From Bdellovibrionales bacterium (lineage in GTDB: Bacteria; Bdellovibrionota; Bdellovibrionia; Bdellovibrionales; UBA1609), in the NCBI GenBank assembly GCA_019637855.1, contig JAHBUX010000004.1:1-64000 (forward strand): 64,000 bases of DNA, in the 5' to 3' direction. Shown piece by piece: positions 17,644 to 22,826 of this stretch; position 1 is the first letter of the stretch, and each line of letters begins with the position of its first letter. A program made the translations under genes and the position numbers. The notes beneath the pieces are model-generated. The model ran no database searches. It saw only the letters and a list, made by a program, of their open reading frames with translations, and had not been told where the DNA came from.

Positions 17644-18039
17644 CTAGTGCTTGCCAGGCTCGAGCTTAACGCCTTTACGCTCGGAAACCGCGTAGGCAAT
17701 GAGCGCGGTCATTTCTTTTGAGCCAGGCTGCAAGTCCTTACCTTGCAACGGATTGCGAATGCACCAATTCACCATCTCCCAGAACTGGGTCACCTTGCCC
17801 AATTGCTTTTGAAACTTAGGATAGGTTTCCGGGTGTGAGTTCGCCCCATTGGGGTGACATTGGGCACAGGCGACACCATTGGTGCCGAGCTTAATCTTGG
17901 CAGAATTGGTCCACAGCGTGCGGCCGTATTTTGCCACCGAATCGTATTCGCCCTGCCAGCGCGCCACATCTTCCTTGCTGAAGGTGTCAGCTTGTGAGGA
18001 GAGTGCTGCGAACATTAAACTTGCAAGAATCCATTTCAT
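17644..18039 (-). CDS. Periplasmic monohaem c-type cytochrome
   Basis: 131 residues with a signal peptide (ending SSQADT) and one haem c site CAQCHPNG near residue 59. The surroundings (NSHPETYPKF) and the C-terminal GSKEMTALIAYA resemble class I cytochromes such as the SoxA/TsdA group. It is the last gene of an operon with a Tat-exported metallophosphoesterase and a di-haem peroxidase, so it is a candidate electron donor to the peroxidase. Confidence 0.85.
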   Translation of the reverse strand: MKWILASLMFAALSSQADTFSKEDVARWQGEYDSVAKYGRTLWTNSAKIKLGTNGVACAQCHPNGANSHPETYPKFQKQLGKVTQFWEMVNWCIRNPLQGKDLQPGSKEMTALIAYAVSERKGVKLEPGKH

Positions 18040-18050
18040 CTCGGAACTCC

Positions 18051-19124
18051 TTAGTAATGATTCTGCGGAGGAATGCGCTTCGCGGGATCTTGGAAGCTGA
18101 CGTCCTCAGGTTTGTCAGTCTTGGTGTTGTAAGCCACCTTGCGCGTGTCATTATCGGGCAACTGAAAGGTCGCATTCACGCGTCCAGAGTTCATACCGAT
18201 AAACTGCCAGCCTGTGGCGTCGCGCTCGAAGAACGGATCGGCGCGATTCATCGGCACGGTCAACACCGGCAAATGGCTTTCCGCCAAAGCGTAGGACTGC
18301 GGATAGGGCCATGGCCAGGCCGTGGCCATTACCGAGTTGAACGCGATATTGCCGATCTTGTTGTACTGGATCTGGTGAACGTGTCCGTAGAGCACATTCA
18401 CCTTTTTAAACGGCTTCAAGATCGCCTGCACTTGCTCGGCGTCATCCGTCCAGAAGTTCCAATTCTTAAAGATCTTCTGCAGCGGCGAGTGCGACAGCAC
18501 CACGAGCGGCGTGTTCTTGTCCACTTTCTCCAAATCCTTCTTCAGCCACTCTCTTTGCTTTTCGCCCACCATGAAGGGTGAACCGTTGGGGTTGTCGAGA
18601 CCGGCCATTTCATCCATACGCTGCTTGGCGGTGGGCCAGCGTTTAAATGTCCACTCATCGGTGGTCAGAATGCTGTTCAAAACCACAAAGTGAACGCCTT
18701 TATGGTCAAAGCTATAGGTGTGCGGACCGAACAGTTTGGACCAGTACTCGCCTAAGTCTAAGTAGTAGTCATGCTCGCCCATCACGTAATGCACTTTGTG
18801 TTTGCAGGCCGACATGATTTCGGCGCCGTGATCGAGTTCGGGCTTAGTGCCGAGCTGGGCTAAATCGCCACCGTAAATCACGAAATCCGGCTTAGGCAGG
18901 AGCAAGTTGCACTCAGCCACCGCGCGCTTCAACCCCTGGTCCCAGTTGCGCACGAACTCTTTACCCTTGATGTGCTGAATGTGCGAATCGGAAATGTAGG
19001 CGAAAGTAAAATCCTGCGCGCTGTCCGCAAAAGCCAAACGCACCAAACTGATCGGCAGGGTCGCCAATGCTCCTGCAGCCAGTCCCGCTTTACCGAATTC
19101 ACGACGTGAAAATTTGAAACTCAT
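18051..19124 (-). CDS. Tat-exported metallophosphoesterase
   Basis: 357 residues. The N-terminus carries a twin-arginine signal (SRREFGKAG then a hydrophobic stretch). The calcineurin-like core shows ISDSHIQH, YGGDLAQLG, MGEHDYY (GNHD variant with Glu), LSHSPL and YGHVHQIQ, giving the expected metal ligands. The substrate is unknown. It lies between a di-haem peroxidase gene (9-nt gap) and a monohaem cytochrome gene (11-nt gap), an unusual partner for a phosphoesterase. Confidence 0.85.
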   Translation of the reverse strand: MSFKFSRREFGKAGLAAGALATLPISLVRLAFADSAQDFTFAYISDSHIQHIKGKEFVRNWDQGLKRAVAECNLLLPKPDFVIYGGDLAQLGTKPELDHGAEIMSACKHKVHYVMGEHDYYLDLGEYWSKLFGPHTYSFDHKGVHFVVLNSILTTDEWTFKRWPTAKQRMDEMAGLDNPNGSPFMVGEKQREWLKKDLEKVDKNTPLVVLSHSPLQKIFKNWNFWTDDAEQVQAILKPFKKVNVLYGHVHQIQYNKIGNIAFNSVMATAWPWPYPQSYALAESHLPVLTVPMNRADPFFERDATGWQFIGMNSGRVNATFQLPDNDTRKVAYNTKTDKPEDVSFQDPAKRIPPQNHY

Positions 19125-19133
19125 CGTTGTCTC

Positions 19134-20252
19134 CTATTTTTTGGCCACGAGTTTAGGACTGCTCAGGGCTTTCATAAATGCGACTAGGTCTTTCTTCTCT
19201 TGCGCCGTCAAGTTGAGCGGACGAATACCACCGCTCAAATATGGGTTGATGACTTCTTTCGGATTGGAGGCGCCGCCCAGATTGTAGTGCTCGACAACCT
19301 CATCCAAAGTCTTCAAGCTGCCATCGTGCATGTAAGGTGCAGTGAGATCGATATTACGCAAAGTGGGAGTTTTAAAACCACCCATCTCGAAAATATAACG
19401 AGTGACTGCAAAGCGCCCGAGCTCGGAGCTCTTCTCGTCGGTCAAAGCTTTCTTGTCGACTTCGTTCTGGTCGTATTGCGCGCGCAGATACTCTTTCGAC
19501 AAACGATCGATATCGGCTTGCTTCATCTTGTTGATACCTACACCGATATTGTGAAACTTGTTGTCGGTGAAAAGTGCTTGTGTTTGCTCGATAACATGGC
19601 AAGAAACACAGCGGCCGTTTCCGATAAAGGCCTGAAAGCCGCGCTTCTCAGCCGCATTTAGCGTATTCTCGCCACCATAGTACCAACGGTCGAATTTCGA
19701 TCCGCCAAAGAGCTGCGTGCGCTCAAAGGTCGCAATCGCTTGCGTCACATGCTGAATCTTGATGTCATTCGGCTCAAGATTGAACGTTTTCTTGAAGGCG
19801 TCCACATAGGCTTTGTCTTCACGAATGGTCTTTAAGATCGGCTCATGATTGGCTAAGCCCATCTCCACCGGATTGGTGAAAGGGTGCAGAGCTTGATCTT
19901 CAAGATCGGGCGAACGACCGTCCCAAAACTGCGTCGTGCTGAACGCCGCATTGGCCACCGTCGGACTGCTACGCGTCCCGGTCAAACCATTCACACCTTT
20001 GGAAACCGCCAAGCGGTCGGTGAAACCCTTATTGGGCTCATGGCAAGTGGCGCAAGAGATCTTGCCAGTCGAGCTAAAACGCGTGTCATTGTACAAGCGC
20101 TGACCAAGCGTCACCCGCTCCGGCGTGATGGGGTTGTTCGCAGGAACTTTAAGGGCCGGAAGTCCCAAAAGATTGGCATCTTCCTTCGTGTCCGCCACCG
20201 CCGGTAAGGCGAAAAGCAAGGCAGCAAGCAGAGAACCAAGTTGTAAGAACAC
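19134..20252 (-). CDS. Di-haem cytochrome c peroxidase (CcpA/MauG family)
   Basis: 372 residues with a signal peptide (ending AVADT) and two haem c motifs, CATCHEP near residue 71 and CVSCHVI near 212. The layout (RVTLGQRLYNDTRFS, WDGRSPDLEDQALHPF, FKTPTLRNIDLTAPYMHDG) is that of bacterial cytochrome c peroxidases, which reduce hydrogen peroxide to water in the periplasm. First gene of a three-gene operon, divergent from a Fur/PerR-type regulator, with a palindrome between them. Probably peroxide- or metal-regulated. Confidence 0.92.
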   Translation of the reverse strand: MFLQLGSLLAALLFALPAVADTKEDANLLGLPALKVPANNPITPERVTLGQRLYNDTRFSSTGKISCATCHEPNKGFTDRLAVSKGVNGLTGTRSSPTVANAAFSTTQFWDGRSPDLEDQALHPFTNPVEMGLANHEPILKTIREDKAYVDAFKKTFNLEPNDIKIQHVTQAIATFERTQLFGGSKFDRWYYGGENTLNAAEKRGFQAFIGNGRCVSCHVIEQTQALFTDNKFHNIGVGINKMKQADIDRLSKEYLRAQYDQNEVDKKALTDEKSSELGRFAVTRYIFEMGGFKTPTLRNIDLTAPYMHDGSLKTLDEVVEHYNLGGASNPKEVINPYLSGGIRPLNLTAQEKKDLVAFMKALSSPKLVAKK

Positions 20253-20299
20253 TATTGCCTCCTTATGTCTTCACAAATGAATGCTAAATGAGAGTATTT

Positions 20300-20314
20300 T
20301 TAGATTCAATCTAA
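20300..20314. promoter_or_regulatory. Fur/PerR-type 7-1-7 operator
   Basis: TTAGATTCAATCTAA is a perfect 7-1-7 inverted repeat, the architecture of Fur-family boxes (for example the PerR box TTATAATnATTATAA). It lies in the 106-bp intergenic region between the peroxidase operon and a Fur-family gene, 48 bp and 45 bp from their starts. The regulator next door is the natural candidate to bind it. Confidence 0.7.
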
Positions 20315-20358
20315 TATTAAATTCCGTCTAAACGTTAAGACTGCTAAATTATTGAACG

Positions 20359-20742
20359 ATGAATCAGCTTTTAGAAAAACGCGGGTTGCGCGCGACACCG
20401 CATCGTGTGCGTATCGCTCAAAAAGTTTTGCAGGAGCATTGTCACTTTACCGCCGAAGACATCTGCGGCTGGGCTGGCGGGCTTAAGAAGCGATTGAGCC
20501 GTGCGACGGTCTACAACATACTAAATGAGTTTGTAGCCGTCGGACTGTTGAAGTCGTTTTACTCGTCCGCTCTGGGCAAGACAATCTATGACTCGAATAC
20601 CGAGAATCACTTTCATTTGTATGACACCGATAAAGATCAAATTTTGGATGTGGACCCTTCTCTGGTGACGGTCAACACGAGTGGTTTAAAGGGCTATCGT
20701 ATCGATCAAATCGAAATTTTAATGAAAGGCCGCCGGCGCTAG
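20359..20742 (+). CDS. Fur/PerR-family transcriptional regulator
   Basis: 127 residues. Winged-helix domain with RATPHRVRIAQKVL and SRATVYNILNEFVAVGLL, as in Fur proteins. The metal-sensing residues HCHFTAEDI and ENHFHLYD are present, but the structural zinc CxxC pairs of many Fur/PerR proteins are absent (YDTDKDQ where a Cys pair usually sits) and the C-terminus is short. Divergent from the peroxidase operon. Probably represses that operon and itself; whether it senses peroxide (PerR), iron or manganese cannot be decided. Confidence 0.85.
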   Translation: MNQLLEKRGLRATPHRVRIAQKVLQEHCHFTAEDICGWAGGLKKRLSRATVYNILNEFVAVGLLKSFYSSALGKTIYDSNTENHFHLYDTDKDQILDVDPSLVTVNTSGLKGYRIDQIEILMKGRRR

Positions 20743-21248
20743 TTCGGATGAGCTTCTAGATATTTGCGCACCGCTTGAGCCATATCGTCTTTCAGTCCCA
20801 TTCCCGAAGCCGTGAGAATAGCTTGCTCTACAGGCATCTTCTCATCACGCACTAAGTGAATCGCCAAATAGGCAGCAGCTCGATTTCCGGTTTTGCAAAA
20901 AAGCAGTATGGGTTTCTGCCCGGCCTCTTTGATCACCTTGTCGATGCCGGCGATGGTTTCCGGATGAATTTCCGCTTTCTTAGCAAACACCACACGGTTG
21001 TAACGCAGACCGAGCTTGCTGGCTGAAGCCGGCTGAGAGCAACTACCCAACTCATTGAAATCGCGCAGATCCAAAACTTCAGCCCCCTTCTCCTTCTTAA
21101 AGTGGGCCAGCGCCTGGTCACTTGGCTCGCCGGAAATATACAATCGCCCGAAGCGCTTGGCCTCGTCGATGGACGAGGCTGGCCCGGGGGCCGCAAAAGT
21201 GTTCAGGGATGTAAACAGGACCAGTGCGGAGAAGAGTGTGCGAATCAT
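20739..21248 (-). CDS. Periplasmic DUF442/BLH-like phosphatase-type protein
   Basis: 169 residues with a signal peptide (ending TFAAP). The fold matches the beta-lactamase-hydrolase-like/DUF442 group: GRLYISGEPSDQALAHF, EVLDLRDFNE and the active-site loop LFCKTGNRAA (Cys-x4-Arg). Members act as phosphatases or sulfurtransferases; secretion is less common. Convergent with the Fur-type gene and overlapping it by 4 nt. Confidence 0.75.
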   Translation of the reverse strand: MIRTLFSALVLFTSLNTFAAPGPASSIDEAKRFGRLYISGEPSDQALAHFKKEKGAEVLDLRDFNELGSCSQPASASKLGLRYNRVVFAKKAEIHPETIAGIDKVIKEAGQKPILLFCKTGNRAAAYLAIHLVRDEKMPVEQAILTASGMGLKDDMAQAVRKYLEAHPN

Positions 21249-21725: not shown

Positions 21726-22826
21726 TCACAAACTGCGTTTCAATGTGAGTAGAGTCACCTCGGGTGTCGTGCCCAAACGTAGCGGCGGTCCCCACGTGCC
21801 GGTGCCATGACTGACATATATCCACATGCGACCGACCTGACTTAAACCTTCATGAAACTCATGTACCGCACGCACCACCAGGGTCCACGGAAAAAACTGA
21901 CCTGCATGCGTGTGGCCACTCACTTGCAAATCAAATCCTACCTGCGCCGCCGCACGGGCCGCACTGGGCCGATGTGAGAGCAAGATCCTAAAATCCGCGC
22001 TTTCGCCTCCGCGGATCGCCGCCTGCACATCCGGTTGAACATCGGCCTTCATCTGCGCGCCCGCTTTGTCTGGAATGCCACCAACGAGGATGCGAGCACC
22101 GTTATGTTCCACAATCTCACCGCGGTTGTGCAGCACACGTGCCCCCAGCTCGCGGAACACCGTCAACCATTCATCGATATTCCAATAGTATTCGTGGTTA
22201 CCGGAAACGTAGAACACGCGACCGCGCGGTTGCAGGTCAGCCAAAGGATCGATCCCATAGCGCGAGCGCACACTATCACCATCACCAATATCGCCCGTGA
22301 GCGCCACGACATCCGCGGCTAACGAATTCGTCTTTTGCACCACGCGCTCGACATACGTGCGCGTGATCGGCCCGCCCACATGTAGATCTGTGATCAATGC
22401 CACCTTAAAGCCTTCAAGCGTTGAGGGTAGTTCAGAATACTTCACGTCGATCCGCTTTATCGTGGGCCCTCGCAAGGCCACAACGGCGCCCGCCACTAGC
22501 GCAAGAATGCAGGCGACGAGCACATAGATATTTCCGGCCCGATAGCCAGTACTCAACCACATCAGATCGCGCAAGACGGTGAACACGAATATATAAGTCA
22601 ACAAACCCATCGCCGAGTAGGCCACATGGGCAATGCTGTCCTTCAATCTGACATTGTCGCGACGATCACTCCCCCAAACCGTGAGCGGCATAGCTAGGAT
22701 GCAGAGAAAGGGAACGGCTAAAATAATCTGCAGATAAAGTTCGCCTTGGGCCAAACTCCAAACCAAGTAGGAATATGCCAGGGCAAATAGCGCCAAGGCC
22801 ATAAAGAAGACGCGTGCAATGCCCAA
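21726..22826 (-). CDS. Membrane metallophosphoesterase (YkoQ/YaeI type)
   Basis: 366 residues. The first ~130 residues contain four or five membrane helices. The C-terminal phosphoesterase domain has ITDLHVGG, LTGDIGDGD, VSGNHEYYW, LLSHRPS and VSGHTHAGQFFPW, the full set of metal ligands. Relatives remove phosphate from lipid-linked or UDP-sugar substrates at the membrane; the substrate here is unknown. Confidence 0.85.
   Translation of the reverse strand: MGIARVFFMALALFALAYSYLVWSLAQGELYLQIILAVPFLCILAMPLTVWGSDRRDNVRLKDSIAHVAYSAMGLLTYIFVFTVLRDLMWLSTGYRAGNIYVLVACILALVAGAVVALRGPTIKRIDVKYSELPSTLEGFKVALITDLHVGGPITRTYVERVVQKTNSLAADVVALTGDIGDGDSVRSRYGIDPLADLQPRGRVFYVSGNHEYYWNIDEWLTVFRELGARVLHNRGEIVEHNGARILVGGIPDKAGAQMKADVQPDVQAAIRGGESADFRILLSHRPSAARAAAQVGFDLQVSGHTHAGQFFPWTLVVRAVHEFHEGLSQVGRMWIYVSHGTGTWGPPLRLGTTPEVTLLTLKRSL

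Follow-up and report, generated by a model that had tools for sequence, protein, structure and literature searches.

Why should a di-haem peroxidase, an exported phosphoesterase and a small cytochrome be encoded side by side in one bacterial operon? The question is raised by a stretch of 64,000 nucleotides (hereafter, the window) from a Bdellovibrionales bacterium (assembly GCA_019637855.1, contig JAHBUX010000004.1, positions 1 to 64,000 of the forward strand), in which three such genes, here called CCP, MPE and CYC, diverge from a gene of the Fur superfamily (FUR). The MPE-CYC pair recurs in contexts with partners other than CCP; MPE and CYC are thus the constant unit, and CCP, present in one clade only, is one partner among several. 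We tentatively read the whole as a mobile periplasmic redox module in which an MPE-CYC core would be coupled to CCP under the control of FUR. The genes in question are:

19134..20252, (-) strand: CCP, a di-haem peroxidase with a GTG start and a signal peptide (domain match CCP_MauG, 1.5e-56)
18051..19124, (-) strand: MPE, a metallophosphoesterase with a twin-arginine translocation (Tat) motif (domain match Metallophos, 1.4e-12)
17644..18039, (-) strand: CYC, a monohaem cytochrome (domain match SoxA-TsdA_cyt-c, 3.1e-11)
20359..20742, (+) strand, divergent: FUR, a Fur-superfamily regulator of 127 amino acids (domain match FUR, 2.6e-14)

The intergenic gaps measure 9 bases between CCP and MPE, 11 between MPE and CYC and 106 between CCP and FUR, and a Shine-Dalgarno-like AGGAG lies ahead of each of CCP, MPE and CYC. 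A preliminary description of this DNA had reported the spacing of 9 and 11 bases and the divergence from a Fur-family gene, both of which are borne out by the open reading frames. It had also taken the peroxidase and the cytochrome as the obvious pair and had seen the phosphoesterase as out of place, a view that the comparison among genomes does not support: phosphoesterase and cytochrome are constant and CCP is optional.

CYC is found directly downstream of MPE in 63 of 68 loci. Of the other five, four are truncated at the end of a contig (which leaves 63/64 assessable loci), and the fifth (L004) is on a Methylocystis plasmid, in a region with many insertion sequences. In the reciprocal direction, a search for CYC in 72,556 plasmids matched 42 records, 41 of them in Sinorhizobium, Rhizobium, Methylocystis and Phyllobacterium, genera whose plasmids also carry MPE; the sole odd record is one Exiguobacterium. 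Tree distances of MPE are correlated with those of CYC (r=0.92) and with those of CCP (r=0.83). CYC stays with MPE where CCP is absent, which rules out CCP as its constant partner. In general terms, three contexts can be differentiated:

Context A, at least 40 loci: CCP-MPE-CYC
Context B, 12 loci (L095-L103, L106, L107 and L109): MPE-CYC, then an Lcl_C-domain (DUF1566) gene, with soxYZ as well in L109
Context C (L006, L104, L105 and L108): a CarboxypepD_reg-like gene, MPE, CYC and cbb3-type oxidase genes; grouped here too is S. meliloti L007, in which soxYZ lies close to the pair

In L006, L104, L105 and L108, where CCP is missing, the pair is followed by another electron acceptor, the cbb3-type oxidase.

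The spread of the set is wide and discontinuous. When 84,980 species genomes were scanned with MPE, 28 loci were obtained, distributed among alpha-, beta- and gamma-proteobacteria, Desulfobacterota, Myxococcota, Acidobacteriota, Campylobacterota and Bdellovibrionales. In these loci, MPE identity is 64-79%, the range of the main clade, and CCP lies upstream and CYC downstream of MPE wherever the contig reaches. The preliminary description had named a gene order unique to this genome as a refuting outcome; on the contrary, the order CCP-MPE-CYC is found again at no fewer than 40 other loci across six phyla (near-duplicate loci, e.g., L024/L025 and L032/L035, being counted separately in these totals). 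MPE is present in 36 of 369 genomes sampled from the class of Methylobacter marinus, from which 35 flanking regions were read, one of them being a second Thiohalocapsa copy. Within the window's phylum, 369 genomes yielded just three with MPE, one of them the window's own, and the three other genomes of the window's genus lack it; therefore, the set has been gained or lost often. Class surveys centred on a Helicobacteraceae metagenome-assembled genome (1/397) and on Pacificimonas (1/385) each recovered only the centring genome. On a plasmid of Methylocystis sp. MJC1 (L005), the distance between CCP-MPE-CYC and a gene for a Tn3-family transposase is about 1.3 kb, which is a direct sign of mobility. 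An apparent CCP-MPE fusion (L027) was rejected as evidence: at the junction, the Tat motif and the last part of CCP are missing, as expected from either an assembly fault or a genuine deletion.

Could these genes be ordinary neighbours, that is, a phosphoesterase that scavenges phosphate, placed by chance, in this lineage, in one operon with a peroxidase and the cytochrome serving as its donor? The MPE superfamily is broad and includes many extracellular phosphatases. Nevertheless, the order across six phyla, the pairing of MPE and CYC without CCP and a GEHD motif present in 69 of 69 MPE sequences contradict this explanation, which we consider highly improbable.

That motif directs attention to the core itself. 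MPE starts with a Tat motif (SRREFGK), whose two arginines are kept in 65 of the 66 family sequences that cover the position, and is therefore probably exported. Structure comparison gives it a fold of the GpdQ/Rv0805 type. The MPE model is weak (predicted local distance difference test score of 66, and below 50 in the region of WPWPYP, a motif conserved in MPE) and does not resolve where the Trp residues stand relative to the metal site. The metal ligands D46, H48, D87, H212, H248 and H250 are all kept. MPE thus resembles the class III phosphodiesterases GpdQ, Rv0805 and CpdA in fold and in these remaining ligands, and it retains all the calcineurin-like motifs (DxH, GD, GNH(D/E), H and GHxH) save for one change: the metal-ligand Asn is invariantly Glu (E117), so that GEHD replaces GNH(D/E). 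It further differs from those enzymes in its predicted Tat export and in the electron-carrier gene alongside. Distant Tat-exported relatives from Burkholderia, Mycobacteroides, Cupriavidus and Gemmatirosa plasmids (L116-L119) also have GEHD, and three of the four lie beside or near a cupredoxin, like CYC a one-electron carrier; they would form part of a wider redox-linked phosphoesterase group. It is conceivable, if distinctly unlikely, that the GEHD MPE is itself a redox or redox-gated two-metal enzyme, a calcineurin-fold oxidoreductase whose electrons would pass to a dedicated carrier (the SoxA-like cytochrome here, the cupredoxin in the distant relatives) and from it to a peroxidase or oxidase. 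We know of no precedent for such an enzyme. The neighbours recorded around the four distant relatives are cupredoxins, a Rieske protein, extracytoplasmic function (ECF) sigma factors or a rhodanese.

The other half of the core, CYC, has a single haem motif (C58xxC61H62), predicted to bind haem, and a predicted export signal. The earlier name of monohaem cytochrome holds as regards the one haem, while the protein turns out to be SoxA-like instead of a generic class I cytochrome. It shares with the cysteine-ligated cytochromes SoxA and TsdA the fold (Foldseek probability 1.00, E ~0.01) and a Cys at the haem-ligand position, C93, which aligns with the SoxA Cys in 64 of 64 CYCs. In TsdA and SoxA, an Arg four residues ahead of this Cys (Arg119 of TsdA) is invariant (PMC4423706). 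In contrast, Met89 replaces this catalytic Arg in 63 of 64 CYCs, which also differ from those proteins in having only one haem; against the SoxA family model, CYC scores 40.8 bits for a cut-off of 110. All main-clade CYCs terminate in PGKH, His being the last residue (window 17647-17658).

The likeness to SoxA brings in a second explanation, namely a sulfur system in which CYC would be a SoxA-like sulfur carrier or oxidant, MPE would, like SoxB, hydrolyse a carrier loaded with sulfur or sulfate, rhodaneses would supply sulfane sulfur, and CCP would be an electron sink only. The match of CYC to SoxA by sequence and to TsdA/SoxA by fold, together with the ligand-position Cys93, is consistent with it, and so are the soxYZ genes close to the pair in S. 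meliloti (L007) and in the second Thiohalocapsa copy (L109). Likewise, SoxB, which also has a two-metal calcineurin-like fold, appears far down among the fold matches of MPE, and three unrelated types of rhodanese-like gene occur next to the set. Rhodanese genes proper do so in L010, L020 and L034, and the window contains a gene of a further kind:

20739..21248, (-) strand (the operon strand, beyond FUR): ROD, a predicted exported CX5R protein (rhodanese/DUF442-like or protein tyrosine phosphatase (PTP)-like)

Relatives of ROD adjoin the set in L008, L014 and L036 as well, and form a fourth operon gene in related loci; ROD could be a rhodanese or, equally, a PTP-like phosphatase, and the latter possibility counts against a sulfur system. 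Furthermore, MPE fits GpdQ/Rv0805 far better than SoxB, the catalytic Arg of TsdA/SoxA is replaced as described, and soxYZ is absent from the locus of the window, L007 and L109 being the only loci that have it close to the pair. All in all, we regard a sulfur system as unlikely.

The peroxidase, in turn, is not of the ordinary bacterial kind. CCP carries two haem motifs (C67xxC70H71 and C215xxC218H219), both predicted to ligate haem, and is, judging from its sequence, a member of the superfamily of bacterial cytochrome c peroxidase (bCcP) and MauG, of the MauG/MbnH type. With the Nitrosomonas-type and other bacterial peroxidases (1iqc and relatives) it has in common the two-haem fold, the FWDGR segment and Glu130. 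But where they have the Met ligand of the electron-transfer haem, CCP has Tyr323, which aligns with the MbnH Tyr at the axial-ligand position (that of the sixth ligand of the second haem), where Tyr is found in 43 of 44 sequences; and its neighbours, a near-obligate MPE and a SoxA-like cytochrome, differ from theirs. CCP resembles MbnH and MauG in having two CxxCH haems and this Tyr, and the MbnH structure 6e1c is its best full-length structural match. On the other hand, it scores 248 bits against a cut-off of 363 (362.85) for the MbnH model TIGR04039 and 217 bits against one of 444 for MauG, and its partner here is a metallophosphoesterase. The model for MbnP (TIGR04052) was unmatched in the genome of the window but equally so in the control genomes, a search that thus had no positive control.

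MauG acts on methylamine dehydrogenase and MbnH on MbnP, and from them a third explanation can be modelled: CCP would use peroxide to oxidise a Trp (or another residue) of the Trp-rich MPE, which would then be the matured product. The full-length match to MbnH and the Tyr at the ligand position agree with this, as do the ten near-invariant Trp of main-clade MPEs, including those of WPWPYP, and the fact that an NCBI family of MbnP-like proteins is named 'WxW'. W163 is Trp in 44 of 44 main-clade MPEs versus 1 of 25 other members (L004, without CCP). However, four CCP-linked MPEs (L005 and L090-L092) have Gly at this position, while WPWPYP, W158, W193 and W222 are equally conserved in MPEs without an adjacent CCP; therefore, no Trp tracks CCP cleanly. 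Moreover, protein modification leaves CYC unexplained, and we think it improbable here.

As for regulation, the gap of 106 bases between CCP and FUR has a guanine plus cytosine content of 29% and contains the perfect 7-1-7 box that the preliminary description had pointed out, followed by an imperfect copy:

20300..20314: TTAGATTCAATCTAA, a perfect 7-1-7 palindrome and candidate operator
20317..20331: TTAAATTCCGTCTAA, a second copy of the box with 3 mismatches, 17 bases past the first

Perfect 7-1-7 palindromes arise in 1.6% of shuffles of this gap. The exact sequence TTAGATTNNATCTAA has one site only in the whole 3.37 Mb genome, and relaxed forms of the box are no more frequent across the genome than the reversed-pattern control (3 sites vs 5, and 6 vs 7 in a second count). 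No genome-wide regulon of the box was found by these counts; any regulon is therefore local, and the box TTAGATTCAATCTAA, if it is an operator, serves its own locus only. It resembles the iron control element (ICE) motif of Irr, TTTAGAA-N3-TTCTAAA. In L036, the palindrome TTGGATTGATTCCAA upstream of CCP matches the box at 11 of 15 positions; this is no more than suggestive of a related operator, since 6-of-7 palindromes turn up by chance often enough in a stretch of 250 bases. Another candidate operator is the palindrome GGAAAAATWTTTTCC, conserved just upstream of CCP and opposite a PerR-like gene in L031 (~3896) and L032 (~3881).

Residues H29, D78, H84, H86 and D97 of FUR align (to 2fe3) with His37, Asp85, His91, His93 and Asp104 of B. 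subtilis PerR, five out of five, the regulatory metal ligands of that protein. FUR has no CxxC pairs in its sequence and hence no structural Cys4 zinc site of the PerR type. PerRB and Irr are likewise not known to carry that site, and the models of Leptospira PerRB (94 vs a cut-off of 250 bits) and rhizobial Irr (70 vs 170) are the best-scoring regulator models for FUR, although all fall below their cut-offs, these two by far. The label 'PerR-like' is thus reasonable, though unproven. In the two other set-bearing genomes of the same order, no relative of FUR was detected at E<=1e-5. Genes of the Fur/PerR type adjoin the set in six loci of three phyla (the window, L024, L025, L031, L032 and L033), Campylobacterota and Acidobacteriota among them; that of L033 is directly upstream of the set and has an apparent frameshift. 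Accordingly, of the arrangement whose conservation the preliminary description had proposed to check, the gene order holds across six phyla and the link to a Fur-type gene only in those 6 CCP-type loci.

The links of the set to peroxide are real but patchy. In L032 and L035, the KatG gene begins 11 bases beyond CYC; further on in L032 come genes for a Dps-like ferritin, a two-domain rhodanese and a YceI-like protein. Other neighbours include (i) rubrerythrin in L024, L025 and L034; (ii) superoxide reductase in L013; (iii) an AhpC-type peroxiredoxin in L009; and (iv) CMD/AhpD-like proteins in L018 and L019.

How, then, would the redox module that we favour operate? Its core would consist of the Tat-exported MPE with its altered site and the small Cys/His-haem CYC, which would carry the electrons of the pair, the two forming an electron-delivering or redox-regulated unit. 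From CYC, electrons would flow to CCP, which would reduce H2O2 and so act as a peroxide-reducing electron sink. On balance, peroxide would be consumed to oxidise either a substrate of MPE or some other reductant that supplies CYC; the reaction of MPE is the most conjectural step of all. Locally, FUR would act as a repressor that reads the peroxide or metal state and switches the operon through the box at 20300-20314. Several points weigh against this reading: (i) enzymes of the MauG/MbnH type often modify proteins instead of scavenging peroxide; (ii) the Lcl_C-gene clade has no obvious electron sink adjacent; (iii) most CCP-type loci lack an adjacent Fur gene or peroxide gene; (iv) copies of the box near other genes are no more numerous than expected by chance; and (v) the correlated trees may partly reflect a species history in common. 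In any case, while the probability stays somewhat short of even, a peroxide-linked periplasmic electron-transfer chain is what the module would most resemble in its working.

By the family tests, the module falls outside MbnH, bCcP and SoxA. It is a combination of known families for which, in the literature searched, no description was found, either of the MPE-CYC pair or of the CCP-MPE-CYC operon, in keeping with the initial suspicion of an unrecognised periplasmic system. An odd-looking operon thereby becomes a recurrent, transferable module with a fixed phosphoesterase-cytochrome core and exchangeable electron sinks, and it opens a testable path towards assigning a function to the large group of exported phosphoesterases annotated by fold alone. 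If the proposed reading is true, it would represent a new coupling of bacterial periplasmic chemistry to peroxide removal.

Finally, the window encodes a second metallophosphoesterase at 21726-22826 on the (-) strand, with N-terminal membrane helices and a YkuE/YaeI-like appearance, which is apparently unrelated to the CCP-MPE-CYC operon.

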